Shown piece after piece: positions 3,309 to 19,536 of a stretch of 36,991 nt of DNA. The stretch's first letter is position 1; every line of letters starts with the position of its first letter. The notes beneath the pieces are model-generated. The model worked only from the letters and a program-made list of their open reading frames with translations, had not been told where the DNA came from and did no database searches. The DNA comes from Candidatus Krumholzibacteriia bacterium (GTDB lineage Bacteria > Krumholzibacteriota > Krumholzibacteriia > LZORAL124-64-63). The DNA lies in assembly GCA_024762975.1 (NCBI GenBank), contig JANTGJ010000020.1, positions 1-36,991 of the forward strand, written 5' to 3'. Made by a program: the position numbers and the translations under genes.

Positions 3309-3662
3309 TCAACTTCCCAGCAGGCGCGGCGCGAAAATCACCCCACCGACGATCGCCGCCGCGATCGACGCGATCAGGACCGCTGCGGCCAGGATGTCTT
3401 TCACCTGGCCGTAGCGGTTGTCCTTTTGCGGGCTGAGGATGTCGACGAGTTTTTCGCCGGCCGTGTTCAGCAGTTCCAACGACAGCACCAGGCCGATCAT
3501 TGCCACGATCAGCGCCCACTCCAGGGCCGAGATCGCATAGCAGGCACCCAGCGCCACGGCCACGACCGCCACGCCCAGCATCACGAAAATATTCACCTGT
3601 CCCTGCAACCCGGAAGCGAGGCCGCGGAACGCGTATCCGAAACTGCGGAAAAATCGCATCAT
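3309..3662 (-). CDS. dgkA: Diacylglycerol/undecaprenol kinase (DgkA family)
   Basis: This 117-residue integral membrane kinase phosphorylates diacylglycerol or undecaprenol with ATP at the inner membrane, recycling lipid from envelope synthesis. Three transmembrane segments are visible (about 24-43, 47-66 and 90-110). The family active-site motif is present: E63, N66, E70 and D74 in an ELLNTA-E-LVD context, followed by K88-D89 and an AAAVL segment. A Gly sits where most members have Ile in NTAIE. The spacing between the motifs resembles the Gram-positive undecaprenol kinase type, so the substrate cannot be fixed from sequence. Its ATG overlaps the addA stop by four bases (ATGA), so translation is probably coupled to the repair helicase genes. 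Confidence 0.93.
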   Translation of the reverse strand: MMRFFRSFGYAFRGLASGLQGQVNIFVMLGVAVVAVALGACYAISALEWALIVAMIGLVLSLELLNTAGEKLVDILSPQKDNRYGQVKDILAAAVLIASIAAAIVGGVIFAPRLLGS

Positions 3663-6600
3663 GCCTTCGTACCTTTCGGTGGGATCTCGACCAGGCGTTC
3701 GGAGGACTTCAGTTTCGGATCCGTGAACAGCAACCAGGTGCCCACCTCCCGGTCGGGATACTGCGCCGAAATCGCTTCACGGTAGAGCGCGAGTTGAGGT
3801 GCGTAGTGGTCGCACCAGTGGTCGCGCCGCGCGCGGTCGCCGCCGGTACGATTGGTCTTGTAGTCCACGATATCGACACGGCCGGGCCGGAAGACCAATC
3901 GGTCGATGATACCGGTGATGCGCTGGGGAATACCGGTTCCCGGTCGCGCGTGAATCAGGGGAACCTCACTGCGACCGCGCAGGCCGTTGCCGTCGGGAGC
4001 GAAGATCCACCCCCAGGCGGGATCCGCGAACACCGCCGCGGCCTCGGCATGCAGTGAATCATCCCCCGGCGGCATGGCGCCCTGGTCGGCGGCCAACTGC
4101 AGCAGCGCGTGGATCTCCTCGCCACGCACCGTGGGCGGCAGCGTTTCGGCAGCAGCGTCGAAAAGAGTGCGCTGAGCCGCCGTTTGCGTTGCCTTTTCCG
4201 CCGCGGCGTCCTCGCCGCCTGCACTCGAGGGGGTGACCTCTTTCAGTCGCTCCCGTTGTACCGGTGGTTGCCAGATGCGATAGGCAACGGCCGGCTCCCG
4301 TGTATCGAGTGGATTGCCGGGCGCCACCGCCTGCGATTGCAGCCATTGGGGCGCCTCGGTTTGGACGGCATCGCAGCCGGTCGCCCCCTGGCGGATCCGA
4401 CGCAATGGGCTTTCGAAATCGTCACGACCCGACTTCGGTTCCTTGTTCCCACCCAACACGTAGAGCCGGTCGCGCGCCCGGGTGAGCGCCACGTACATCA
4501 GATGTGCTTCCTCGCGACGACCGCGCTCGCGGGCAATACGGGCAGCCGCCAGCAATCGGTCCTCGGGCATCGCCAGACCGGCCGGCAACTGGAACGGGTG
4601 CCGGTGCTCTTTGCGCAGTCCGAAAAGCAGGGGCGTGTTCGGATGGATCGGGTCGGTGCGGATCCGTCCGCCTTCCTTGTCACCGGGACGATCGGCGTCG
4701 ACCAGCAGTACGACGGGCGACTCCAAGCCCTTGGCGCCGTGGATCGTCATGAAACGCACGCGCCCCTGGTCCGATCCGCGCGGAAGCGAGCCCTCGTCCT
4801 GGCCGCCACGACGACCCGCCCCGTCGATCATTTCGATCAAACGGCGCATCGTGGGCGAGAGCGCCAATTCGGAGCTCTGCGCGAGATCGAACAGGCGCAG
4901 CAGGTTGTAGCGGGCCTGGTCTCCCCGGGCCGCCTGGTAGCGTTCGAGCACCTCGCCCTCGCGGTAGATACGCCGCAACAGATCGTGGCAACTGACGAAG
5001 CCGAGGTTGCGACGCCAGATCTTCAGACGCTTCACCGGCTCGCCCGTGACCTCGTGATTCTCGTCGGCGCTCAGTGTCTGCCACAGCCCGCGCGGCGGCA
5101 GTTTTTCGCCCTGCTCATCGCGACGGTCGAGGCCGCGTCGGGCCAGCGTCTCCTGGAATTCCTGCTCGCTCAGACGGAAGAGCGGCGAGCGCAGCACCGT
5201 TGCCAGTGCGGCATCATCGGCCGGGAATACCAGCCAGCGCAGCAACGCCAGGAGATCCTGCACCTCCCGGCTGGCCGCAAGCATGCCGCGTCCCGAGGGC
5301 GCTACCGGAATGCCCGCTTCCTGGAAGGCTTTCTCATAGACGGCGATTTCGGTGCGCGTGCGACACAGGACCAGCACGTCGCTCCAACCCAGAGGGCGCT
5401 CGCGCAATTCGGCTCCAAATCCTTCCCACGTCGTTTCGCCCGAGTCGACCAGGTGTCGTGCGATGCGAGCCGCCTGTGCGGCGGCCATCTCGTCGACACT
5501 GCGTCCCGCATCCTCGGTCTCGGAGGCGCCTTCTTCACACGGCGGCAGGGCGAAATTTTCGCCCGGCGCTTCGGTCCGCGCCCACTGCTGGGCTACGTTT
5601 TCATGTTCCGACGGCTCGAGGTACTCGACCAGCGGCGCTCTTCGGAACAGGCAGCCCACGCCACTCACTACCGCGCCCAGGCTGCGGAAATTCGTCGGGA
5701 GACTGAGCACCGGTTGCTCGCGCTCGGTCAGCAGGTTCTCGACCCGGGCGAAGAGATCGGGCTCGGCGCCGCGGAACTCGTAGATGGACTGCTTCACGTC
5801 GCCGACGAAGAAAACCGTCGGCTGCCGCTCCTCATCGCCCCCGGCCAGGAATTCTTCGACGAAGGGCCGCAGGATTTCCCACTGGTTGAAATTCGTATCC
5901 TGGAACTCATCCAGCAGGATGTGGGTGATCGAATCGTCCAGGCGATAGAGCAGCGACAGCGCGCGCGCATCGTCGCCCATCAGGCGGCGGGCCAGATCCT
6001 CCAGGTCCTGGAAATCCACCACGCGATCCCGGCGTTTCAGGTCGTCGTAGAGGTCCAGCGCGCGCAATCCCAGTCGAAGCAGGCCGCGGTTTCGCAGGTA
6101 AAGTTCGATGTACTTCGCGCGGCGCAGAACATCCAGCAGCGGCATCGCGTGGCGGCCCACGGCCTCGTTCAGCGCGTCCTTGAGCACTTCGTCGCGCTTG
6201 CGGGTAAACGCCTTCAGCTTGCCGGCCTGGGTCAGCAACAACTGATGGACGGAGGCAAAGGCGCTCTCATCCGTCGCTCGGATCGGACCGGCCGCAGCGC
6301 GCAATTTTTGCAGATCCTTGGCCAGGGCCGCCGCCGCCTCGGCGCCGATTTCCCTTTCGATACGATCGGTCCCGGCGGTGCGGAATTCGTTCAGCGCATC
6401 GGCCAGCGCGGGCAACAGATCAGCCAGGGCCGGTTGCTCGTTCCGGGGAGACTCCGGGAACAACAATTCGCGCAACTCACGCAACATCTCCGGTAGGACT
6501 TCGTTGCGCGGCGGCCGCAGGGCCGGGTCTTCGGACAATCCGGTGAGGCGATCAATCCAGCGCTGCACACGCATCTGCTGGTGGAAGAACGAGCGGACTG

Positions 6601-7216
6601 CCAGTCGGACAGCCGTCGGCGTATCCGCCGTCTCACTGGCGGCGGCCGCCGTATCGCCCCCGCGGGCAATCTCGGTCTCGAGCAGATCGAGCGCCTCGTC
6701 GACCAGCTCCTGCGCATCCTCGATCACCGCGAATTTCGGATCCAGCCCCGCCTCGACCGCGAAGCGGTTCAGGATGGTTTGGCAGAAGGAGTGGATCGTT
6801 CCCACGTTCAGGCCCGATACATCTTCGAGTACCTGTTCATAGAGGCGTGCGGCGCGCTGCATCTCCGGCGCGCTGGGCCTGGGATCGGTCCGGTCAGCAA
6901 ACAGATCGGTCAGCAGGGCGCGCAGGTCCTCCGGTGCCGCCAGCGCCATCTTCGCCGTTCGCTGGAGCAGGCGCTCCTGGATCTCGACCGCGGCCTTGCG
7001 CGTGAAGGTGACAGCCAGGATCGAGCGGGGATGCGCCGGACGTCCGACACTCTCGATGCACAGGCGCAGGAATCGATCCACCAGGACCTTGGTCTTGCCC
7101 GAGCCGGCCGAGGCGCGCAGGGCCACCGAACACGTTGGCGTTGCGGCCCGTCGCTGGATTCGCGTCGCCTCGGTGACCGCGCGAGCTGCGTTCTGGATGT
7201 CGTTGCGCTGCGTCAT
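3659..7216 (-). CDS. addA: AddA-type ATP-dependent helicase/nuclease subunit
   Basis: At 1185 residues this is the UvrD/Rep-like helicase-nuclease subunit of the AddAB (RecBCD-equivalent) complex, which resects double-strand breaks for RecA loading. Superfamily 1 motifs appear in order: Walker A ASAGSGKT at 35-42 (K41), the TFTRKAA motif Ia, a LLDEFQDT Walker B, GDVKQSIY.FRGA (motif III), LPTNFRS (motif IV), MTIHGAKGLE (motif V) and YVALTRARDRLYV (motif VI). The C-terminus is a RecB-family nuclease with D1105, D1118 and K1120 in a DYKTNR context, then a YAPQLALYR motif. All catalytic motifs look intact. The start overlaps the addB stop by four bases and its own stop overlaps dgkA by four, giving a coupled operon. 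Confidence 0.96.
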   Translation of the reverse strand: MTQRNDIQNAARAVTEATRIQRRAATPTCSVALRASAGSGKTKVLVDRFLRLCIESVGRPAHPRSILAVTFTRKAAVEIQERLLQRTAKMALAAPEDLRALLTDLFADRTDPRPSAPEMQRAARLYEQVLEDVSGLNVGTIHSFCQTILNRFAVEAGLDPKFAVIEDAQELVDEALDLLETEIARGGDTAAAASETADTPTAVRLAVRSFFHQQMRVQRWIDRLTGLSEDPALRPPRNEVLPEMLRELRELLFPESPRNEQPALADLLPALADALNEFRTAGTDRIEREIGAEAAAALAKDLQKLRAAAGPIRATDESAFASVHQLLLTQAGKLKAFTRKRDEVLKDALNEAVGRHAMPLLDVLRRAKYIELYLRNRGLLRLGLRALDLYDDLKRRDRVVDFQDLEDLARRLMGDDARALSLLYRLDDSITHILLDEFQDTNFNQWEILRPFVEEFLAGGDEERQPTVFFVGDVKQSIYEFRGAEPDLFARVENLLTEREQPVLSLPTNFRSLGAVVSGVGCLFRRAPLVEYLEPSEHENVAQQWARTEAPGENFALPPCEEGASETEDAGRSVDEMAAAQAARIARHLVDSGETTWEGFGAELRERPLGWSDVLVLCRTRTEIAVYEKAFQEAGIPVAPSGRGMLAASREVQDLLALLRWLVFPADDAALATVLRSPLFRLSEQEFQETLARRGLDRRDEQGEKLPPRGLWQTLSADENHEVTGEPVKRLKIWRRNLGFVSCHDLLRRIYREGEVLERYQAARGDQARYNLLRLFDLAQSSELALSPTMRRLIEMIDGAGRRGGQDEGSLPRGSDQGRVRFMTIHGAKGLESPVVLLVDADRPGDKEGGRIRTDPIHPNTPLLFGLRKEHRHPFQLPAGLAMPEDRLLAAARIARERGRREEAHLMYVALTRARDRLYVLGGNKEPKSGRDDFESPLRRIRQGATGCDAVQTEAPQWLQSQAVAPGNPLDTREPAVAYRIWQPPVQRERLKEVTPSSAGGEDAAAEKATQTAAQRTLFDAAAETLPPTVRGEEIHALLQLAADQGAMPPGDDSLHAEAAAVFADPAWGWIFAPDGNGLRGRSEVPLIHARPGTGIPQRITGIIDRLVFRPGRVDIVDYKTNRTGGDRARRDHWCDHYAPQLALYREAISAQYPDREVGTWLLFTDPKLKSSERLVEIPPKGTKA

Positions 7217-10200
7217 CCTCCGAAGGCCTCCCGTGCTCCGACGAGCTTGTCCAGGCGGCGGCGCACGTCCGCACCCAATCCATCGCGCTCCTCGATGCGA
7301 CAGACTCCACGGAAGTCACACCATTTGCAGGGCAGCGTGGAGAGCCCCTCACCCCGGCGTGCACGGGGTATCAGTGGGTGTTCGGCGTTCGGGTCGGCGG
7401 CGGCGATGGCCAGTTCCGCAATCTCCAGGGCGCCTTCAACCAGGATCGAACGACCGGCGTCGGCACCGGCAGCCAGATGCGGTTGAGCCGGCGGTCCGGC
7501 CTTCTCGCCCTCGACCGGGTAGTAGATCCCCTCGGCCACGGTTCCGGTCACCGGCCGCGGATCGGCACCGGCCAGGGCTCCGGCCTCGAGCGCGGCGGCG
7601 TACAGCACCACCTGCAACTCCTCGCGCTCCTGAAGGCTCTTCTTTGCCGGCAACTTGCCCGTCTTGTAGTCGATCACGGCCAACGACGCCGAACCGTCCC
7701 GGCATCGATCGATCCGGTCGATGCCGCCCGTCAGGACAATCCCCTCGGTAGCCCGGTCACGCAATGGATCCAGACGCGGCGCCGCGGCAGCACCGAGTTG
7801 GCCCGAACACCAATCCAACAACTGCTCCAGCGGCATGTGAAAGCGCGGCTCCAGCGCGAGGGGGCGCCAGTTCTCGAAGCGTTCGAGCTCGCCACGTACC
7901 AGGTACGGCACCGCGGCGGTGAACGTGTCCAGCCACAGCTTCCGCACCGGCAACTCGCGCGAACCGGGCAGGAAGGCTTTCGCGGCCAGATCCAGCAGCA
8001 ATTCCTGCGCGCGATCCCCTGTGCCGGCGGACAGCCCGGCGTGACCCTCGCCCTCGGGATCGAGCCAGTCTTTCAGCACATCGTGGACAATGCGGCCGTA
8101 CTCCTTGCGCCCGAACTCGGCGCGCACTTCCTCGGATTTGCGGAGACCGAAACCGCGCTCGAGCAGGAAACGATAGGGACAATCGCGCCAAAGCCGGAGC
8201 GCCGACCAGCTCAGCTCGATCCGGGGCCGAGCCGATTCGGTCAAGGGGATGTCGAGCGGCTCCGCGCTGAATTTCTCCCCCCGGGATTCGATCTCGACCC
8301 AGGGGATGTCCTGCTTGCGCCAGTTTGGGACCTCGCCGGCGGTCTGCGGATCGCCCAGCGCCAACAACAGGCGCGAAACGAACGGCGACGGCAACGCGGG
8401 CTGTCCCTGATCCTCCAGCGGCCAGGTCAGGGTGACCTGCGGGGCGGCGTGCAGCAGGCGCAGGAAGAGCTCGGCGTCGCGGGCCATCGTCTCCTGCCAG
8501 ATCGGGAGATCGAGTCGGCGTCGTAGCGCGCCCGGCAGCAGCAACGGGCGCTTCGTGCGCACCGGGAACGATCCCTCTCGCAGGCCCGCGACGATCAGCA
8601 GGTCGAAACGTTCGAGCCGCGCTTCGACCAGACCGGTCAGCATCACCGGCAGATGGGCGCGGCGATGGGCGGCGACCTCCTCACCGGCCAGCAGGCGCCC
8701 CAGCTCGGTCGCGAACTCGGTCAGGGTGACGGGAGGCAAGCGCTCGGCCTGCCAGCGCAAATCGTCCAGCAGTTGGGCGGCTTTCTGGATATCCGTCCGA
8801 TTCGAATCTCCCACCAGCGGTTGCTTCGGGGCCAGCGCATTCCAGCAGGCAACGACAGCGTCCAACAGCTCGCGCCAGCCGGTGCGAAGCTGCCCCCCGC
8901 GTTCGGTGCCGAACTCCAGCAGCGGCGCGAAAGCGTCGGCGACCGCGGTGACGAATTGGACCATTCCGGCGCCGCGGCCCCCGAAGAGATCAAGCGCCGC
9001 CTGGTCCCGATCCTCGGCTCGTCGATGCAGCCCGGCCAGGCCACCCTCGGGTCCGGTCTCCCGCCGGAAGATCTGTTCCAGTTGCAGGGTCCAACGACCG
9101 TGGCCGCCCTGGCCGCCGGTTTCCAATCGCACGTACGGGTGGGTGAGCACCTCCAACAGCGGTTCGGCGCGCAGGCCGGTCACGGCCGAACGCAGAATGA
9201 ACCGCAGCAGCAATCCGGAGGCCTGCACGGACAACGGCCGGCCATGGGTGTTGTCCACGTCCAACCCGGCATCCGTCAATTGCGCGTAGAGACGCTCGGC
9301 CAGGTCGGGATCGTTGACGGCGATGCCGATGCTCGGAGCCTCCCGGCCGGCAGTCTCCAGCAACGTCGCCACGCGATCGGTGATCACCCGGCTTTCGGAC
9401 TCGGGATCGCCGCAGGGGAGCAACTCCAGCGGGCCGGTGGGTGCCAACAGGCCCCGCGGATCATCCAGTTCGCTGAGACGTTCGTGCAGTGTGGCCGCAA
9501 CTTCCGGGGAATCGCTCTCGACGTCGAAGGCCCGGGCAATGCGCCGCGTCCCGGCCAGCGGATCGGTGGCCGGTGCGGCTTCCTCGGGCTGGCCCCAGGT
9601 TGCCAGGAAGAGGCGGGAAATCGGAGCCGTAGCTTCCGGGAGATAGAGCGCGGACCGGTCGGACGTCGAGGTCGCCGCGCGCAGTACATCCACCCGCAAA
9701 GGATCGATCCGACCGAAGCCGGCGATCAGACACTGTTCGTAACGACGGCCGGGCACCTGCCGGCCGGCCTGACGAAGACGTGCCAGTTCGTCCCCGACTT
9801 CGACCCGATGATCGATCTGGTCCCGCGGCACGGCCTTGCGGTACAGGTCCCATACCTCGCGCGCCCGCTCCAGATCGGCCGCCACAACCTCGGCTTCCTG
9901 CGGCGAGGATTTCTCCAGCACCGATTCGAGGTTCTCCGCTTGCAACAACATCGCGTCGCGCCGATGGCGTCGTGCCTCGTCGAAGAAATCCAGGAACTCG
10001 GTCGCCAGCGAGGGTGCGTTCTCGGGCCGATCGGCCAACCAGGGGACCTGCAACAGTTCCCGTGCCAGAATGATGGCCCGAATGCGATCGTCCGGCAGAT
10101 GCGCGGCCGACAGCCCCATTCCGATCGCGACCTCACTGGCCCATTGCTCGGCCGTCAGGATGCGCGGCAGCAGGAGACCCTCGCGCCCACTCTCCTGCAG

Positions 10201-10362
10201 CAGGATCCGCCCGAGCGTCTTGCAGGCGCGCGCCGAGGGCAGCAGCACCAGTACATCACTCAGATCTCCCGTCTGTGCACCGGAAGCATCGCGAAGCACG
10301 TCGCTCGCCACCTGGCACAGCAGGTCGCCGGAAAACGGGAGGTGGCGGATGATCAAGGGCAT
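7213..10362 (-). CDS. addB: AddB-type nuclease subunit with Fe-S cluster motif
   Basis: This 1049-residue protein is the partner of AddA. The C-terminal PD-(D/E)XK nuclease shows a GIDRID segment (D882/D885) and D898-K900 in an IDYKTGK context, followed by a QxxxY-like motif. Four cysteines match the AddB-type Fe-S pattern: C728 in a DCPYRF segment before the nuclease, and C1012-x2-C1015-x5-C1021 after it. The N-terminal region has the helicase-like fold remnants, but its segment around VLLPSARACKTLG lacks a Walker A (no GxxxxGKT), as in the alphaproteobacterial type of AddB. It therefore probably does not hydrolyse ATP and acts in Chi recognition and 5'-strand cutting. It is the first gene of the unit. 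Only a weak GAGG lies 12 bases before the ATG. Confidence 0.92.
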   Translation of the reverse strand: MPLIIRHLPFSGDLLCQVASDVLRDASGAQTGDLSDVLVLLPSARACKTLGRILLQESGREGLLLPRILTAEQWASEVAIGMGLSAAHLPDDRIRAIILARELLQVPWLADRPENAPSLATEFLDFFDEARRHRRDAMLLQAENLESVLEKSSPQEAEVVAADLERAREVWDLYRKAVPRDQIDHRVEVGDELARLRQAGRQVPGRRYEQCLIAGFGRIDPLRVDVLRAATSTSDRSALYLPEATAPISRLFLATWGQPEEAAPATDPLAGTRRIARAFDVESDSPEVAATLHERLSELDDPRGLLAPTGPLELLPCGDPESESRVITDRVATLLETAGREAPSIGIAVNDPDLAERLYAQLTDAGLDVDNTHGRPLSVQASGLLLRFILRSAVTGLRAEPLLEVLTHPYVRLETGGQGGHGRWTLQLEQIFRRETGPEGGLAGLHRRAEDRDQAALDLFGGRGAGMVQFVTAVADAFAPLLEFGTERGGQLRTGWRELLDAVVACWNALAPKQPLVGDSNRTDIQKAAQLLDDLRWQAERLPPVTLTEFATELGRLLAGEEVAAHRRAHLPVMLTGLVEARLERFDLLIVAGLREGSFPVRTKRPLLLPGALRRRLDLPIWQETMARDAELFLRLLHAAPQVTLTWPLEDQGQPALPSPFVSRLLLALGDPQTAGEVPNWRKQDIPWVEIESRGEKFSAEPLDIPLTESARPRIELSWSALRLWRDCPYRFLLERGFGLRKSEEVRAEFGRKEYGRIVHDVLKDWLDPEGEGHAGLSAGTGDRAQELLLDLAAKAFLPGSRELPVRKLWLDTFTAAVPYLVRGELERFENWRPLALEPRFHMPLEQLLDWCSGQLGAAAAPRLDPLRDRATEGIVLTGGIDRIDRCRDGSASLAVIDYKTGKLPAKKSLQEREELQVVLYAAALEAGALAGADPRPVTGTVAEGIYYPVEGEKAGPPAQPHLAAGADAGRSILVEGALEIAELAIAAADPNAEHPLIPRARRGEGLSTLPCKWCDFRGVCRIEERDGLGADVRRRLDKLVGAREAFGG

Positions 10363-11952: not shown

Positions 11953-12201
11953 GGCGCATCCTTTCCGAATGTGGGGTACAGGCATCCGGGTCGAGACGAT
12001 TTGATGATAGCATAAACAGTCAGGAAAACGGGCATGGTAAAAACAGGAAAGCCGCGACATCGGGAAGGAACTCCCGATATTGCTGGGCGCTTGCTCTGTT
12101 TCACGCCAACCGGAAACCTCGCCCCGGTTGACTCGCCCCCCGCGATCGGAGACACTGCAGCGCGTATTCAACCGCCGCCTTGTCCCCTTCGGGAGGTTCC
12201 G
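11953..12201. promoter_or_regulatory. Divergent intergenic region between lipoprotein and DUF3857 operon
   Basis: This 249-base gap must hold the promoters of two divergent transcripts. On the minus strand, TATGCTATCAT (complement of 12004-12014) fits an extended -10 element (TG-n-TATCAT) about 50 bases before the lipoprotein start. No good -35 is seen. On the plus side, a perfect 7-base inverted repeat (ATCGGGA at 12059-12065 and TCCCGAT at 12072-12078) could be a leader hairpin or operator for the DUF3857 operon. GGGAGG at 12191-12196 is the ribosome site of that operon. These are pattern matches only. Confidence 0.4.
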
Positions 12202-14247
12202 ATGTCCACCCTCCGCGCCCTTACCCTTTGTCTGCTGGGTTTGTTGATTTCCACTACCGCATGGGCTGAACTCACCGCCGAACCGATCGACGTGAGAGCC
12301 AGGCTCGAGGCGATCGCCGGTCGCGATTTCGACGGCGCCGACCAGGTCGTCGTGCTGGACCGGACGAACATCGATGTCGAACCCAGCGGTCTTTCGCACA
12401 TCGTAAACCAGCGGGTGGTCCAGGTCCTGACCGAGTCCGGCGCGGCAAATGCCTCGTTCCAGCGACTCGACTATGACCCGACGACGCAGTCGATCACGGT
12501 CAAGCGCGTCGTCGTATACCGAGCCGACGGTTCGTCCGAGGTGCAGGATCTGGAAAGAATCGAAGACGTGATCGCGCCGGCACACGCCATCTACTGGGGT
12601 GCACGCATGCTGGGCCTGGATCTGCCGCGACTGCATCCGGGCGACGCTGTCGAGATCGAGACCTACCGCAAGGGATTCCAGATCGCATATCTCGCGAACG
12701 AGACCGAAATCGATGGCGGCCGCCCGATGTTCCCGGCCCGCACGTTCGGCGACGCCGAGGATGAGAGCCGTTTCATCCCGCCCATGCGAGGTCACTACTA
12801 CGACATCGTGTTGTTCCAGGAAACAAGCCCACTGGTCGAAAAATCCTACACGCTACGCACGCCGCGCGCGACTCCTGTCCAATACGAGGTCTACAACGGA
12901 GAGGTGAAGGCCGCCCAGACCTTCGACGCCGATCATTTCACCTATCGCTTCGAACTGCGGGACGTACCGGCCGCGAAACACGAGTGGCGCAGCACCGGCC
13001 TGAGCGACTATGCGCCGAAGGTCGTCCTGGCCACGGTCGACGGCTGGGAAGCCAAGTCACGCTGGTTCCATGACGCGAATACCGCGCAGTTCGAAACCAC
13101 GCCCGAGATCACCGCCCGGGTCGAAGAGTTGATCGATGGCCTGAAGACCGACCAGGAACGGATCTCGGCCATCAACCACTGGGTTGCGCAGAACATCCGG
13201 TACTGTGGATTCAGCCTCGGCGCGAAAGAGGGATATACGTTGCACCCGGGCGAGCTGATCTACCGTGAGCGCGCCGGTGTCTGCAAAGACATCGCCGGCA
13301 TGAGCATCACCATGTTGCGGGCAGCCGGCTACACGGTATACCCCGCCATGACGATGGCCGGTTCACGCGTCGAGTACACGCCCGCCGACCAGTTCAACCA
13401 CTGCGTCGTGGCGCTGAAGAACGACGATGGCAGCTACAAGATGCTCGACCCCACCTGGGTCCCCTACTCACGATATGACTGGTCCCGCAGCGAAGGCGAA
13501 CAGCACTACGTCGTCGGTTCGCCCCAGGGTGAGGATTTGAGCATCATCCGCAGATACTCGGCCGAGGAAAACGGCGTCGTGATGAAGATTGACGCGAAAA
13601 TCGACAAGAACGGCACCCTCCGCGGCAAGCTGAGCCTGGACCCGAGCGGCAATTCGGACACTCGTTTGCGGCGTGCTGTGGGCAGCAATCCCAAGGATCG
13701 CGTCGAGCCGAATTTGCGAGCCTGGCTGGCGACACTCGGTCCGGCGGCGGATCTCGTGAAATACGAATTCGGCAAAGCCGAGGACTGGTCCCGGCCCATG
13801 ACGCTCGAGGTGGAGTTCGTCGTGCCGGACTACGCCACTGTCGGCCGGCGCACGCTCACCTACCGACCGGTCGGCAGCCGCCTGGTGATGGCCAACTATG
13901 CCCGTCTCTTTGGCTATACCGGCCGCAACCTTGCCCGGGAGCGCACCACCCCCGCGCTCATCTGGGCCAATGGCCAGGTTGCGCTGACCGAGAAGATCGA
14001 ACTGCCGAAAGGCTTCGAGGCGAACGCACCCGCCGGAGACGTCGTAGCCGGTAACGCCGAAAGCGCCGGCCTTTGCGATTTCACCTGGAAAGCCGGCGGC
14101 CGCACGTTGACCTTCGCCGGACGCCTGGTGGCCGCCGATCGCACGATCTCTCCCGAAGGTTGGCCCGACTATCGGGACGCGATGTCCCGTTTTGAAAAAG
14201 TAGGCGCGACTCCGATCGTCGTCTGGAAGAAGGGGGGCCGCTCATGA
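12202..14247 (+). CDS. Exported DUF3857 / transglutaminase-like protein (catalytic triad intact)
   Basis: The protein has 681 residues from the ATG at 12202, which follows GGGAGG by five bases; the frame is open further upstream but lacks such a site. A signal peptide (1-22, ending TAWA) is followed by a DUF3857 beta domain (about 45-220), a transglutaminase-core domain (about 310-430) and a C-terminal beta-rich region. The Cys-His-Asp triad is visible as C361 in a GVCKD context, H400 in FNHCV and D416 in LDPTW. This argues for a working cysteine enzyme such as a peptidase, amidase or transferase in the periplasm. The substrate is unknown. Its stop overlaps the next start (ATGA), and the next protein is its paralogue. 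Confidence 0.9.
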   Translation: MSTLRALTLCLLGLLISTTAWAELTAEPIDVRARLEAIAGRDFDGADQVVVLDRTNIDVEPSGLSHIVNQRVVQVLTESGAANASFQRLDYDPTTQSITVKRVVVYRADGSSEVQDLERIEDVIAPAHAIYWGARMLGLDLPRLHPGDAVEIETYRKGFQIAYLANETEIDGGRPMFPARTFGDAEDESRFIPPMRGHYYDIVLFQETSPLVEKSYTLRTPRATPVQYEVYNGEVKAAQTFDADHFTYRFELRDVPAAKHEWRSTGLSDYAPKVVLATVDGWEAKSRWFHDANTAQFETTPEITARVEELIDGLKTDQERISAINHWVAQNIRYCGFSLGAKEGYTLHPGELIYRERAGVCKDIAGMSITMLRAAGYTVYPAMTMAGSRVEYTPADQFNHCVVALKNDDGSYKMLDPTWVPYSRYDWSRSEGEQHYVVGSPQGEDLSIIRRYSAEENGVVMKIDAKIDKNGTLRGKLSLDPSGNSDTRLRRAVGSNPKDRVEPNLRAWLATLGPAADLVKYEFGKAEDWSRPMTLEVEFVVPDYATVGRRTLTYRPVGSRLVMANYARLFGYTGRNLARERTTPALIWANGQVALTEKIELPKGFEANAPAGDVVAGNAESAGLCDFTWKAGGRTLTFAGRLVAADRTISPEGWPDYRDAMSRFEKVGATPIVVWKKGGRS

Positions 14248-16076
14248 ACCGCATCATCATGACCCTGCTGCTGCTGGTACTGCTGGTTCCGACCGCCTTT
14301 GCCGCACCCGACCTGGACACGCTCGCAGCCGACGCGCCGGGCCTGGCCGAGTATCCGCTGGCGGATCAGATCACGCTGTACGAACACACCGACATCCAGG
14401 TGGACGCCGAAGGTCGCATGACCCGTCGCGTACACCGGATCCGAAAAATTCTGACCAACTGGGCCATGCGCCGCGTTGCGGACCCGCGGGTGGACTGGGA
14501 TTCTTCGCGCCAGACCCTGGAAATCGAAGTCTGCCGGACCCGGCAATCCGATGGCGCGATCATCGACTCGCCCGCCAACGCGCTGAACGAGGTCACTCCG
14601 GATGCCGTGGGACACTGTGCCCGATTCCTGGACCTGCGCGAAATGGTGATCAGCCACGTGGGCCTCGAGCCCGGCTGTGTCACCGAACTGATCTACACGA
14701 TTCGTGATCTCGAACCGGCGCCGTTGCCGCCTTCGGGGCGGATTTTCCTGCAGGACCGATGGCCGGTGCTCGAACGCAGCATCACGCTGAGCGGCGCGGG
14801 GGTTCGTTCCGAAATCAGAAATGCCGGCGACCTGACCCTCGAGACCGAGGGGTCGACCATCGTGGCGCGCAACCTGCCGGGCTTGCCGGATGCCGTCAAC
14901 GCCCATCGAGCCGACTTCGTACCCTACCTGGTCTACTCCGTCGCCACCGGCGACTGGGAAGAGCTGGCAGGCCGGATCGCGGCAGCCGGTGACGCGGCAC
15001 GGGTCCTGAATGAAGACATGCGCACATGGCTGCAATCGGGCGAAGATCTGACGGCCATCGATACGATTCAAAGGATCGCCGCGCTGGTCGGCGACCGGAC
15101 GCGAACGGTGCACCTGCCCGGAGGCCTGTTTGCTCGCTCACCGCGTGCAACGACCGAAGTCTTCCACTCCGGCTGCGCCTCGCGCTGGGAAGAAGCCCTC
15201 CTGGCTTTCACCCTGCTCGATGGACTGTCGCTGAACCCTTCCCTGGTGCTCGCCGGAGATCTCGAAGTGCTGCCGAAGAAGGCGTTCGCTGTCGAGACCT
15301 GGAATCGGCTGTTGGTCTCGGTCGCCGTCGACGGCCAAAAGTGGTGGGTCTCGCCCGAGCGCGGCGAGGCCTGGCCCGGTTCGATCGCGGAAACGAACAC
15401 GCACCGGCTCACGATACTGGGCCAGAGCGCAGGTTCGCTGACCCACTCGGTGGTCGCGGGACAGGCCTGCGCCATGAACATCAGCATCGTGCCGGACGAT
15501 AGCGGCCTGGTGTTGAGCATCGACTGGCGGGCGAACGGCATGTTGCGCGGACACGAGACCGATGCCGACGAACTGGCCGAGACCCTCGTGCACGCCGTCC
15601 TCCCGGGCGCCGACGTTACCGCGACCGAAATCCTGCAGCTTGACCCCTCCGAGGCCCACCTGCGCATCGAGGCCCAGGCGGACGATCTCGGCACGTTCGA
15701 TGATGGGATCCTGGTTCTGGATCTGCCGACGATCCCCGACGGCGTATTGAGCCACCTGCCGCACGATTGCCGTTTGCAGGAGCCCGTGCGACACTCGCCA
15801 CTCATCCTGCCCGGCGGCATGCGGCAGGAGATGCGCCTGCATCTCGAACTGCCCGAGGGTGTCGAGGTCGACTACCTTCCCACCGCAGAGGAAGCGATTG
15901 CCGACGGAAGCCGTTTTCGCATGGACCCCTCCCGAAGCGACGGCATGCTGGAGCTGGATTGCCGACTCGAGTTGCAGCCCGGCCCCATTGCTTCGACCGA
16001 CTGGCCCCTGCTGCGGAAAATGTTGATCCGGGCGCGCAACGTCGGCGAGGGCAGAATCGTACTGGTCCAACCCTAG
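14244..16076 (+). CDS. Exported DUF3857 protein with degenerate transglutaminase core
   Basis: This 610-residue protein starts inside the stop of the preceding gene (four-base overlap), so translation is probably coupled. It has a signal peptide (1-20, ending TAFA) and a DUF3857-type N-terminal half. Its central region aligns with the transglutaminase core of the upstream paralogue. Cys is kept (C311 in HSGCASRW), but the triad His position is Arg (R355 in WNRLLV against FNHCVV) and the Asp position is Ser (S370 in VSPE against LDPT). It therefore looks like a pseudoenzyme, probably a structural or substrate-binding partner of its neighbour. The C-terminal quarter is beta-rich. The alignment was done by eye and needs a profile comparison. 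Confidence 0.85.
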   Translation: MNRIIMTLLLLVLLVPTAFAAPDLDTLAADAPGLAEYPLADQITLYEHTDIQVDAEGRMTRRVHRIRKILTNWAMRRVADPRVDWDSSRQTLEIEVCRTRQSDGAIIDSPANALNEVTPDAVGHCARFLDLREMVISHVGLEPGCVTELIYTIRDLEPAPLPPSGRIFLQDRWPVLERSITLSGAGVRSEIRNAGDLTLETEGSTIVARNLPGLPDAVNAHRADFVPYLVYSVATGDWEELAGRIAAAGDAARVLNEDMRTWLQSGEDLTAIDTIQRIAALVGDRTRTVHLPGGLFARSPRATTEVFHSGCASRWEEALLAFTLLDGLSLNPSLVLAGDLEVLPKKAFAVETWNRLLVSVAVDGQKWWVSPERGEAWPGSIAETNTHRLTILGQSAGSLTHSVVAGQACAMNISIVPDDSGLVLSIDWRANGMLRGHETDADELAETLVHAVLPGADVTATEILQLDPSEAHLRIEAQADDLGTFDDGILVLDLPTIPDGVLSHLPHDCRLQEPVRHSPLILPGGMRQEMRLHLELPEGVEVDYLPTAEEAIADGSRFRMDPSRSDGMLELDCRLELQPGPIASTDWPLLRKMLIRARNVGEGRIVLVQP

Positions 16077-16131
16077 TCAATTCGGCGGCCGCAAGACCGG
16101 TCGCCTTGCAGGAATGAAACAGGAGCGAAAC

Positions 16132-17250
16132 ATGTCGAAGAGAATCATCCTGACCCTGGCCCTGCTGGCTGCGCTTTTCGTATGGGGCTGCAACCAGACC
16201 CAACAGACCGGGGTGGCCACCAAGGAAATTCCCCACCTGAAGATCCTCATCCTCGGCGGTACCGGGTTCATCGGCCCGTGGGAAGTGCAAGCCGCCCGCG
16301 CTCATGGCCACGAGGTCACGCTCTTCAATCGCGGCAAGACCAATCCCGGCATGTTCGCCGAGCTGGAAAAACTGAAGGGCGATCGTGATCCCGACAAGGA
16401 TGCGGGGCTGAGCGCACTGGAGGGCCGCACGTTCGACGTCGTGATCGACAACAGCGGCTATTACCCGCGCCATGTGAAAGCATCCGCCGAATTGCTGGCA
16501 CCGAATGTGAAGCAGTACATCTATATTTCATCGATCTCCGCCTACGCCCGCACCGACACCATGGGCCAGGATGTCGACGCGCCGCTGGCCACGATGGAGG
16601 ATCCCACCCTCGAGGAGATGGGGGATCAGTGGCAGAACTACGGTCCCCTGAAGGCCCTGTGCGAGCAGGCGGCACAAGCCGCGATGCCGGGCCGAACCAC
16701 CATCGTGCGTCCCGGTTATATCGTCGGTCCCGGCGACCACACCCACCGCTTCACCTATTGGCCACTGCGTGTGCGCCAGGGCGGCGAAGTGGCGGTCCCC
16801 GGCAGCCCGGATGATCCGATCCAGATCATCGACGCCCGCGACCTGACCGAGTGGATCATCCACCTGGCCGAGCAGAACATCACCGGAGTCTTCAATGGTT
16901 GTGGGCCCGAGCAGACCCTGACCATGCGGCAGATGCTCGAGGATACGAAAAAAGCCACCGGCGGTGACGCGACCTTCACCTGGATCGGTACGGATTGGAA
17001 CGAAGCCCATCCCGAGGTCTACTTCCCGATCTGGACACCGTTCGAGGACGAGTACAAGGGTTTCCATACCTTCCGCAACGAGAAATCCATCGAGGCGGGA
17101 TTGAAGTTCCGACCGATCTCGGACACGGTCACCGCGCTGCTGGGGTGGTTCGACGAAAAGCCGGAAGAAGAACGCACGCCGATCCTGGCCCGGATTCCCG
17201 TGGCCGGCGAAGCGGAGATGCTCGAAACGGTTCGCGAAGCCGGACACTAA
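16132..17250 (+). CDS. Lipoprotein-anchored NAD-dependent epimerase/dehydratase (SDR) family protein
   Basis: The start at 16132 is preceded by AGGAG at six bases; an ATG at 16114 would add six residues. The first 20 residues form a lipoprotein signal with C20 in a VWGC context. An extended SDR fold follows: glycine motif GGTGFIG at 42-48, an YISSIS strand (S133/S134) and YGPLK with Y170 and K174 as the catalytic pair. A RPGYIVGPGD segment is typical of UDP-sugar epimerases and related proteins. The whole fold and catalytic residues look intact. The oddity is location: a lipid anchor puts an NAD(P)-dependent enzyme outside the cytoplasm, where free nucleotide is scarce. It may carry a tightly bound cofactor or have a binding role. 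It lies 55 bases after the DUF3857 pair. Confidence 0.88.
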   Translation: MSKRIILTLALLAALFVWGCNQTQQTGVATKEIPHLKILILGGTGFIGPWEVQAARAHGHEVTLFNRGKTNPGMFAELEKLKGDRDPDKDAGLSALEGRTFDVVIDNSGYYPRHVKASAELLAPNVKQYIYISSISAYARTDTMGQDVDAPLATMEDPTLEEMGDQWQNYGPLKALCEQAAQAAMPGRTTIVRPGYIVGPGDHTHRFTYWPLRVRQGGEVAVPGSPDDPIQIIDARDLTEWIIHLAEQNITGVFNGCGPEQTLTMRQMLEDTKKATGGDATFTWIGTDWNEAHPEVYFPIWTPFEDEYKGFHTFRNEKSIEAGLKFRPISDTVTALLGWFDEKPEEERTPILARIPVAGEAEMLETVREAGH

Positions 17251-17271: not shown

Positions 17272-19536
17272 ATGGGTGATATGACGAAACGCAATCGTTG
17301 GGTCCTGGTGATCGTTCTGGTCTGCCCGGCGCTGCTGTGCGCCGGCGCCGGTCGTGCACCTGCCCAGCTCGAGAACAAACCCGCCTGCGAGCTGCATGCG
17401 CCGGCTTCCGACCGCCCCACGATCGGTCTGGTCCTGGGCGGCGGCGGCGCCCGCGGACCCGCTCATATCGGTGTACTCAAGGTACTGCGCGAAATGCGCG
17501 TACCGGTCGACTACGTCGCGGGCACCAGCATGGGAGCCGTGATCGGAGCACTGTTCTCGCTCGGCATGACCCCCGAAGAAATCGAGACGCAGATTCTGGG
17601 CATCGACTGGGATGATCTCTTTTCCGATCCACCGGATCGCCTCCAGCGCACCTACCGGCGCAAACAGGACGACCGCACCGATTTCCTGCCACTCGAATTT
17701 GGATTCACGCGCGAGGCGATTCTGACCAATCGCGGCTTGATCGCCGGCCAGAAGCTGAGTTTCGCTTTCGCCGACCCTCGCCTGGCCACCTCCGGCTACC
17801 AGAGTTTCGACGAGCTGGCCTATCCCTTCCGCGCCGTTGCCGCGGATCTGCACAGCGGCGAAGTCGTCGTGCTGCACGATGGCAACCTGTTGCAGGCGGT
17901 ACGCGCGAGCATGAGCATTCCAGGCCTCTTCCCGCCGGTGCGACGCGATGGCCGTCAGCTGATCGACGGCGGAGTGATCGACAATCTCCCGGTGGACGTC
18001 GCACGGGCCATGGGGGCGGATATCGTGATCGCCGTGGACGTGGGCAATGTGCCCCAGGAAGCGGACGAAGGTGACCTGGGCAGCATTCCCGGAATCCTCA
18101 GCCAGTCGCTGATCATTCAGTCGCGGCACAACACACTGATCCAGATGCAGGATGCCGACATCGTCATCCAGGTGCCGCTGGACGGTCTCAGCTTCCAGGA
18201 TTTCAGCCGCGTCGGCGAAACCATCGCACCGGGGATCGGCGCCGCCCGTGCCGTCCAGTCCCAGCTGGCGCCGTTGGCCCTGGGCAGGGACGAGTATGCC
18301 GAACACCTGGCAGCCCACCGGCCTTCGCCGACGGTCATTCCGATCGTGGATCGTATCGATTTGCTGAATACCAGTCCCGCCGCGGACTCGGCGGTCCGGC
18401 GTCTGATCCGACAGCGCGCGGGGCAACCCCTGGACCTGGCCCAGCTGAAGATCGATCTGGCCGCCATCTATGATTTCGGCGTGTTCGAGCTCGTCGATTT
18501 CCAGGTCAGCCGCGAGCACGGCAGGACCGTTCTGAAAATCATTGCCAGCGGCAGTTCGTATGCACCGTATGTGTTCAAGGCGGCGCTGAACTATTCCGGC
18601 GGTCAGCGGGGCAAGAGCGAGGTCAGTGCCCGTCTGCGCTGCTCGTGGATGGAAATGAACCGGTTCGGAGGTGAATGGCGCAACGATCTGCTGGCCGGTC
18701 GCATCTCCCGACTGCAGAGTGAATTTCGTCAGCCGTTGGGCTGGAGCCGGGTTCCCTTCCTGTCCTTCGGGGGCAGCTCCGAATTTTCGGCGCGGGACTA
18801 TTTCGACCAGGAGAAACGCCTCGGCGAATACAACCTGACCGAGAACGCGGCTACCTTCGATCTGGGCAGCCGCCTGGGCAACTGGGGCGAGGCGCGACTC
18901 GGCCTCGAGTACGGTTTTCTCAAGACGCGCAACCGGTCCGGACTGGGCCTGGAAGAATTCCGCGGCTGGCGCGGCGGCTACACCTCATTCCTGGGCATCG
19001 ACATTTTGGATGATCCCCACTTTCCCACGAAGGGATTCGAGAGCCGCACTTCGCTTTTCCTTGGTCGCGAGGATTTTGGCCGCGACCTGCACTACTCGCG
19101 ACTGGAAACGAGCTGGCGCGGAGTCGTCAGTCGCGGCGGACACACCTTCCAACTCTCACTGTCAGGCGGATCGGACCTGGGCACCGAACTGCCCCAATTC
19201 GAAGAGTTCACTCTCGGCGGCCTGTACCGCCTGAGCGGATACCTCGACCAACAACTGCGGGGGCGTCACTACGGATTGGGCACCATCGGGTGGTACCACG
19301 AGGTGCTGCGCGGTGCAGGGCTCTTTTCACCGTCGTACTATCTCGGGGCGGGACTGGAAGCCGGCAACGCCTGGGCCGACCGGAACTCTGCTCGCTGGGA
19401 TGATCTGCGCTACTGCCTGAATCTGTCGCTGATGGTCCGCACGGCGCTCGGTCCGATCGTTCTGGCCTATGGCCACGGAGAGGCTGGAAACAACACCGTC
19501 TATCTGAAAATGGGGACCGGATTTCTCCCGTTCTAG
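17272..19536 (+). CDS. Patatin-like phospholipase fused to POTRA and outer-membrane barrel
   Basis: The protein has 754 residues from the ATG at 17272; the in-frame ATG at 17281, just after GGGTG, is an equally plausible start. A signal peptide ends near residue 31. The patatin domain (about 50-330) has the oxyanion loop GGGGARG at 56-62, nucleophile S86 in GTSMG and D232 in DGG, giving an intact Ser-Asp dyad. A POTRA-like segment (about 375-430) and a predicted 16-strand-type barrel (about 435-754) ending in Phe follow. This is the PlpD/type Vd autotransporter layout, in which the lipase is exposed at or released from the surface; related proteins in other phyla may stay periplasmic. The substrate is probably a phospholipid. 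It follows the SDR lipoprotein by 21 bases. Confidence 0.92.
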   Translation: MGDMTKRNRWVLVIVLVCPALLCAGAGRAPAQLENKPACELHAPASDRPTIGLVLGGGGARGPAHIGVLKVLREMRVPVDYVAGTSMGAVIGALFSLGMTPEEIETQILGIDWDDLFSDPPDRLQRTYRRKQDDRTDFLPLEFGFTREAILTNRGLIAGQKLSFAFADPRLATSGYQSFDELAYPFRAVAADLHSGEVVVLHDGNLLQAVRASMSIPGLFPPVRRDGRQLIDGGVIDNLPVDVARAMGADIVIAVDVGNVPQEADEGDLGSIPGILSQSLIIQSRHNTLIQMQDADIVIQVPLDGLSFQDFSRVGETIAPGIGAARAVQSQLAPLALGRDEYAEHLAAHRPSPTVIPIVDRIDLLNTSPAADSAVRRLIRQRAGQPLDLAQLKIDLAAIYDFGVFELVDFQVSREHGRTVLKIIASGSSYAPYVFKAALNYSGGQRGKSEVSARLRCSWMEMNRFGGEWRNDLLAGRISRLQSEFRQPLGWSRVPFLSFGGSSEFSARDYFDQEKRLGEYNLTENAATFDLGSRLGNWGEARLGLEYGFLKTRNRSGLGLEEFRGWRGGYTSFLGIDILDDPHFPTKGFESRTSLFLGREDFGRDLHYSRLETSWRGVVSRGGHTFQLSLSGGSDLGTELPQFEEFTLGGLYRLSGYLDQQLRGRHYGLGTIGWYHEVLRGAGLFSPSYYLGAGLEAGNAWADRNSARWDDLRYCLNLSLMVRTALGPIVLAYGHGEAGNNTVYLKMGTGFLPF

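Follow-up and report, generated by a model that had tools for sequence, protein, structure and literature searches.

Introduction

Two overlapping genes of a Candidatus Krumholzibacteriia bacterium encode exported proteins of the same domain family, of which the first appears to be an intact transglutaminase-like enzyme and the second a degenerate copy. The question that this locus raises is whether the second protein is a decaying duplicate or a working partner of the first. Annotation often overlooks dead copies of enzymes, and the DUF3857 family, to which both proteins belong, is almost without literature; among open-licence papers, a single passing mention of DUF3857 was found (PMC6341742), and none that described a pseudoenzyme pair of bacterial transglutaminase-like proteins.

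Results and Discussion

Two overlapping genes encode exported DUF3857 paralogues

The window, which is the whole stretch of DNA analysed here, comprises 36,991 nucleotides of a 3.8 Mb genome in 265 contigs, and the two genes in it, P1 and P2, are the only DUF3857 genes found in that genome. Their reading frames share an ATGA, and a hydrophobic Sec-type signal sequence was recognized by inspection at the N-terminus of each protein (Table 1). The P1 start codon is preceded by a Shine–Dalgarno-like GGGAGG; an alternative in-frame ATG at 12034 would extend P1 by 56 residues, and the starts in its relatives lie near 12202.

Both proteins match DUF3857 (PF12969) above the curated cut-off of 24.6 (101.6 bits and 6.6e-29 for P1, 64.2 bits and 1.9e-17 for P2), as do 32/32 of the P1 relatives and 39/39 of the P2 relatives. 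P1 also matches Transglut_core (PF01841; 33.3 bits, 6.2e-08, cut-off 23), and the same search gave no match for the P2 of the window. The end of P1 is DUF3858-like, with a DUF3858 match in 13 of 32 P1 relatives. Profile–profile comparison of P1 and P2 returned a homology probability of 99.9–100% over about 600 columns, and the mean pLDDT values of the AF2 models were 85.5 (P1) and 90.4 (P2). These results agree with the first-pass annotation, which had described two exported paralogues with a four-base overlap.

Table 1. Positions of the P1 and P2 genes and of their predicted functional elements in the window
Feature	Position	Strand	Basis or remark
P1, exported DUF3857 + transglutaminase-like enzyme (predicted), 681 aa	12202..14247	+	ORF, Pfam, AF2
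P1 Sec-type signal sequence MSTLRALTLCLLGLLISTTAWA	12202..12267	+	cleavage site by eye
P1 catalytic C361 codon (predicted)	13282..13284	+	invariant 117/117
P1 catalytic H400 codon (predicted)	13399..13401	+	invariant 117/117
P1 catalytic D416 codon (predicted)	13447..13449	+	invariant 117/117
ATGA shared by the P1 stop and the P2 start	14244..14247	+	
P2, exported DUF3857 pseudoenzyme partner (probable), 610 aa, degenerate transglutaminase fold	14244..16076	+	Pfam, AF2, profile–profile, 3kd4 type
P2 Sec-type signal sequence MNRIIMTLLLLVLLVPTAFAA	14244..14306	+	cleavage site by eye
P2 pseudo-active-site segment S309–E317	15168..15194	+	column counts
P2 C311 codon, three residues ahead of the C361 counterpart	15174..15176	+	profile alignment, AF2 register, column counts
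P2 R314 codon, counterpart of C361	15183..15185	+	profile alignment, AF2 register, column counts
P2 R355 codon, counterpart of H400	15306..15308	+	profile alignment, column counts
P2 S370 codon, counterpart of D416	15351..15353	+	profile alignment, column counts

The catalytic triad is intact in P1 and lost in P2

In P1, the transglutaminase-like triad C361–H400–D416 is present, in that order, in all of the 117 aligned homologues, whereas the full Cys-His-Asp triad is found in none of the 111 P2 homologues. At the individual positions of the latter, Cys occurs once (locus L051 only), His nine times and Asp 61 times.

The predicted structures place these positions in equivalent surroundings. 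In the P1 model, a helix (350–356) and a strand (358–359) precede a core helix that starts from C361; in the P2 model, a helix (303–309) and a strand (311–312) precede a core helix that starts from R314. P2 thus shows the transglutaminase fold, with the same order and register of elements as P1. Since the register is equal and the profile alignment agrees with it, C361 corresponds to R314, and C311 corresponds to A358. C311 is thereby ruled out as a retained catalytic Cys, and its column is poorly conserved in the 111 P2 homologues (Y 61, G 23, V 10, C 6).

These comparisons correct the first-pass annotation at one point. It had named the P1 triad and the Arg and Ser residues (R355 and S370) at the P2 His and Asp positions, all of which the alignments confirm, but it had taken C311 for a preserved Cys, the position of which is in fact occupied by R314. 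No His/Asp pair is found at the P2 site in the alignments or in the P2 model, and the whole triad is gone, three residues rather than two. The division into one intact member and one pseudoenzyme stands: P1 never loses its triad, while the P2 homologues often keep the Asp, seldom the His and almost never the Cys.

The dead site of the P2 family has a pattern of its own, [ST]-x-x-[GA]-[HTN]-x-x-[DE]-[RK], and conservation is highest in the catalytic core for P1 and in DUF3857 and the dead-site helix for P2. It is highly improbable that this pattern marks a shifted or different catalytic site, for example one made of S/T309 and the frequent H313. Although S/T309 is present in 102/111 homologues and H313 in 43/111, and active-site residues have moved in other papain-like families (PMC10318531), the P2 site has no conserved Cys, position 313 is otherwise mostly T, N, S or D, and residue 309 closes the helix in front of the core helix instead of standing at the N-terminus of the latter.

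P1 and P2 are retained together across phyla

Among 80 Krumholzibacteriota genomes, in which P1 was counted at ≥150 bits, P1 was found in 55, P2 in 54 and both in 54, and no genome held P2 alone. In the one genome with a lone P1 (G022), the P1 match ends at residue 494. For a wider survey, GTDB genomes were scanned with the P1 alignment alone, the P2 alignment having no conserved stretch, and the best 80 loci were kept; the pair itself was thereby not selected for. P2 lies directly downstream of P1 in 75 of the 76 informative loci, the other four (L103, L116, L120 and L131) being at contig ends. The best 80 loci cover at least 13 named phyla, including Bacteroidota, Krumholzibacteriota, Acidobacteriota, Myxococcota, Calditrichota, Planctomycetota, Latescibacterota and Gemmatimonadota, the names being those deposited for metagenome bins, some of which may be wrong. 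The sole informative locus with P1 and no nearby P2 is L133, in genome G089, where a P2-like C-terminal piece was observed at the end of a different contig. Conservation of the pair in relatives, which the annotation had proposed as a check, is thus borne out by both surveys.

Removal of near copies left 93 distinct loci with both genes. In 107 of the 107 pairs checked, some loci being counted twice, the two genes are on the same strand, in the same order and almost abutting. In addition, one locus (L122/L162), a single case from a metagenome-assembled genome, encodes P1 and P2 in one 1462-residue frame that contains no N, with a Pro/Ala-rich joint and without the second signal peptide. Two further candidate fusions were rejected: the frame of L046 is joined through N, and L156 consists of two frames, with a separate signal peptide.

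A 90-protein tree resolves P1 and P2 as two monophyletic groups (SH-aLRT 100 each), and the same was obtained without the transglutaminase columns. The sequence comparisons thus indicate that P1 and P2 form an ancient module and not a local duplication. The patristic distances of P1 and P2 are correlated (r 0.85 over 26 pairs), as is expected of any co-inherited pair, and P2 has evolved about 2.1 times as fast as P1, which would also fit a looser role.

The strict pairing, the fixed order, the coupling of the genes and the one fusion argue that P1 and P2 constitute a single functional unit. The obligate pairing and the natural fusion make it likely that the two proteins share a joint function, and P2 is likely to be a functioning partner of P1 instead of a decaying duplicate. 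Alternatively, P2 could serve the same pathway without touching P1, as an independent binding protein whose ligand is, for example, a peptide or a glycan. The concentration of P2 conservation in DUF3857 and the 301–320 segment would suit such a protein, but the near-exclusive adjacency in at least 13 phyla, the lack of a third gene conserved with the two, and the natural fusion speak against it, and we consider it improbable.

No third gene was widely conserved among the neighbours of the related loci, and the next largest neighbour clusters include antisense frames that overlap P1 and P2. In the window, P2 is followed by a predicted NAD-epimerase with a lipoprotein-like start (16114–17250), upstream of a gene for a patatin-like phospholipase fused to an Omp85-type barrel (17272–19536); both were considered as operon partners and rejected, having no match in the related loci. 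On the minus strand (3659–10362), the window also encodes a UvrD-type helicase with a PD-(D/E)XK nuclease end and, adjacent to it, a second PD-(D/E)XK protein, which together are AddAB-like.

P2 resembles the only close solved structure

The sole close solved structure is 3kd4 (BDI_1141 of Parabacteroides distasonis), a DUF3857/DUF3858 protein that has the same architecture and is titled a 'putative protease'. It tops the fold matches of both models (E 2.3e-33 for P2). Because the P2 profile scores it at 180.7 bits and the P1 profile at only 45.5, 3kd4 is, judged by sequence, most likely of the dead-partner type despite its title. Like P2, it has no Cys in the corresponding segment, 'SAYGTPLEIA'; it differs in being a stand-alone structure that is titled as an enzyme.

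P1 resembles the transglutaminase-like cysteine proteases of PF01841, in that it exceeds the cut-off of that family and keeps Cys-His-Asp, and it shows a weak sequence match and a fold match to one of them, 3isr of Cytophaga hutchinsonii. P1 differs from such proteases in the DUF3857 domain in front, the DUF3858-like end and the dead partner. Foldseek searches with the P1 and P2 models also gave matches of low TM-score to M1 aminopeptidases and to ribophorin I/Ost1.

A precedent for regulation by a dead transglutaminase fold is Cyk3 of budding yeast, in which a transglutaminase-like domain without its Cys helps to activate Chs2 (PMC4758748), indicating that such a fold is able to regulate an enzyme. 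The analogy is one of mechanism only, because Cyk3 is eukaryotic, keeps the His and Asp, and acts on an unrelated enzyme.

A model for the P1–P2 pair

We favour, with somewhat better than even confidence, a model in which P1 is a periplasmic Cys hydrolase or transferase and P2 is its obligate pseudoenzyme subunit. P1 would act in the periplasm, through its transglutaminase-fold Cys-His-Asp site, on an amide bond, more probably as a hydrolase or peptidase than as a cross-linker. P2 would have arisen by an ancient duplication, followed by loss of its nucleophile and its retention as a non-catalytic partner. Co-translated with P1, it would bind P1 and may serve as its periplasmic scaffold, with the DUF3857 domain and the dead transglutaminase site holding the substrate, keeping P1 active, or both. 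The contact between P1 and P2, of which the pairing and the L122/L162 fusion are indirect signs, is inferred, as are the partner that binds the substrate, the direction of the regulation and the substrate itself.

Instead of being a working subunit, P2 could act as an inhibitor or a chaperone and hold P1 in an inactive, or a folded, state until P1 reaches its site. Such a role is compatible with a co-translated, exported homologue that carries a dead site, and the strict pairing fits it as well as it fits a subunit; however, P2 is close to P1 in size and architecture, and one locus even joins the two in a single frame, which sits uneasily with a partner that is to depart. We therefore regard this role as unlikely, and prefer P2 as a lasting subunit of P1.

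The DUF3857 pair is real and widely conserved, with one member intact and one fully dead. That the dead copy tracks its active sister over at least 13 phyla argues that DUF3857 enzymes act as enzyme–pseudoenzyme pairs, for which co-expression and joint assay are warranted, and the family becomes directly testable. A further suggestion is that the sole close solved DUF3857 structure, filed as a putative protease, represents the non-catalytic partner.

Other DUF3857 tandem sets

In a sample of 60 Bacteroidia genomes, each of the 12 adjacent DUF3857 sets examined has one Cys-His member and at least one member without the site, the Asp position being unaligned in L170 and the dead members gapped at the Cys in L185. 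Further tandem sets outside those 12 look similar, and some DUF3857 members are solitary. The hypothesis that all dead members go back to one origin is not rejected (p-AU 0.79; 0.57 without the transglutaminase columns), nor is it established, owing to long branches. We propose only tentatively, and at somewhat less than even confidence, that the pairing of an enzyme with a dead twin is a general bacterial system among DUF3857 transglutaminase-like proteins, one that arose by a single ancient duplication and has been passed on across phyla as a unit.

The arrangement of these sets varies. In the Bacteroidota tandems L168, L169 and L163, the dead copy comes first, which is the opposite of the P1–P2 order, and L169 (2312–8750) contains three genes, one active DUF3857 copy and two dead ones.
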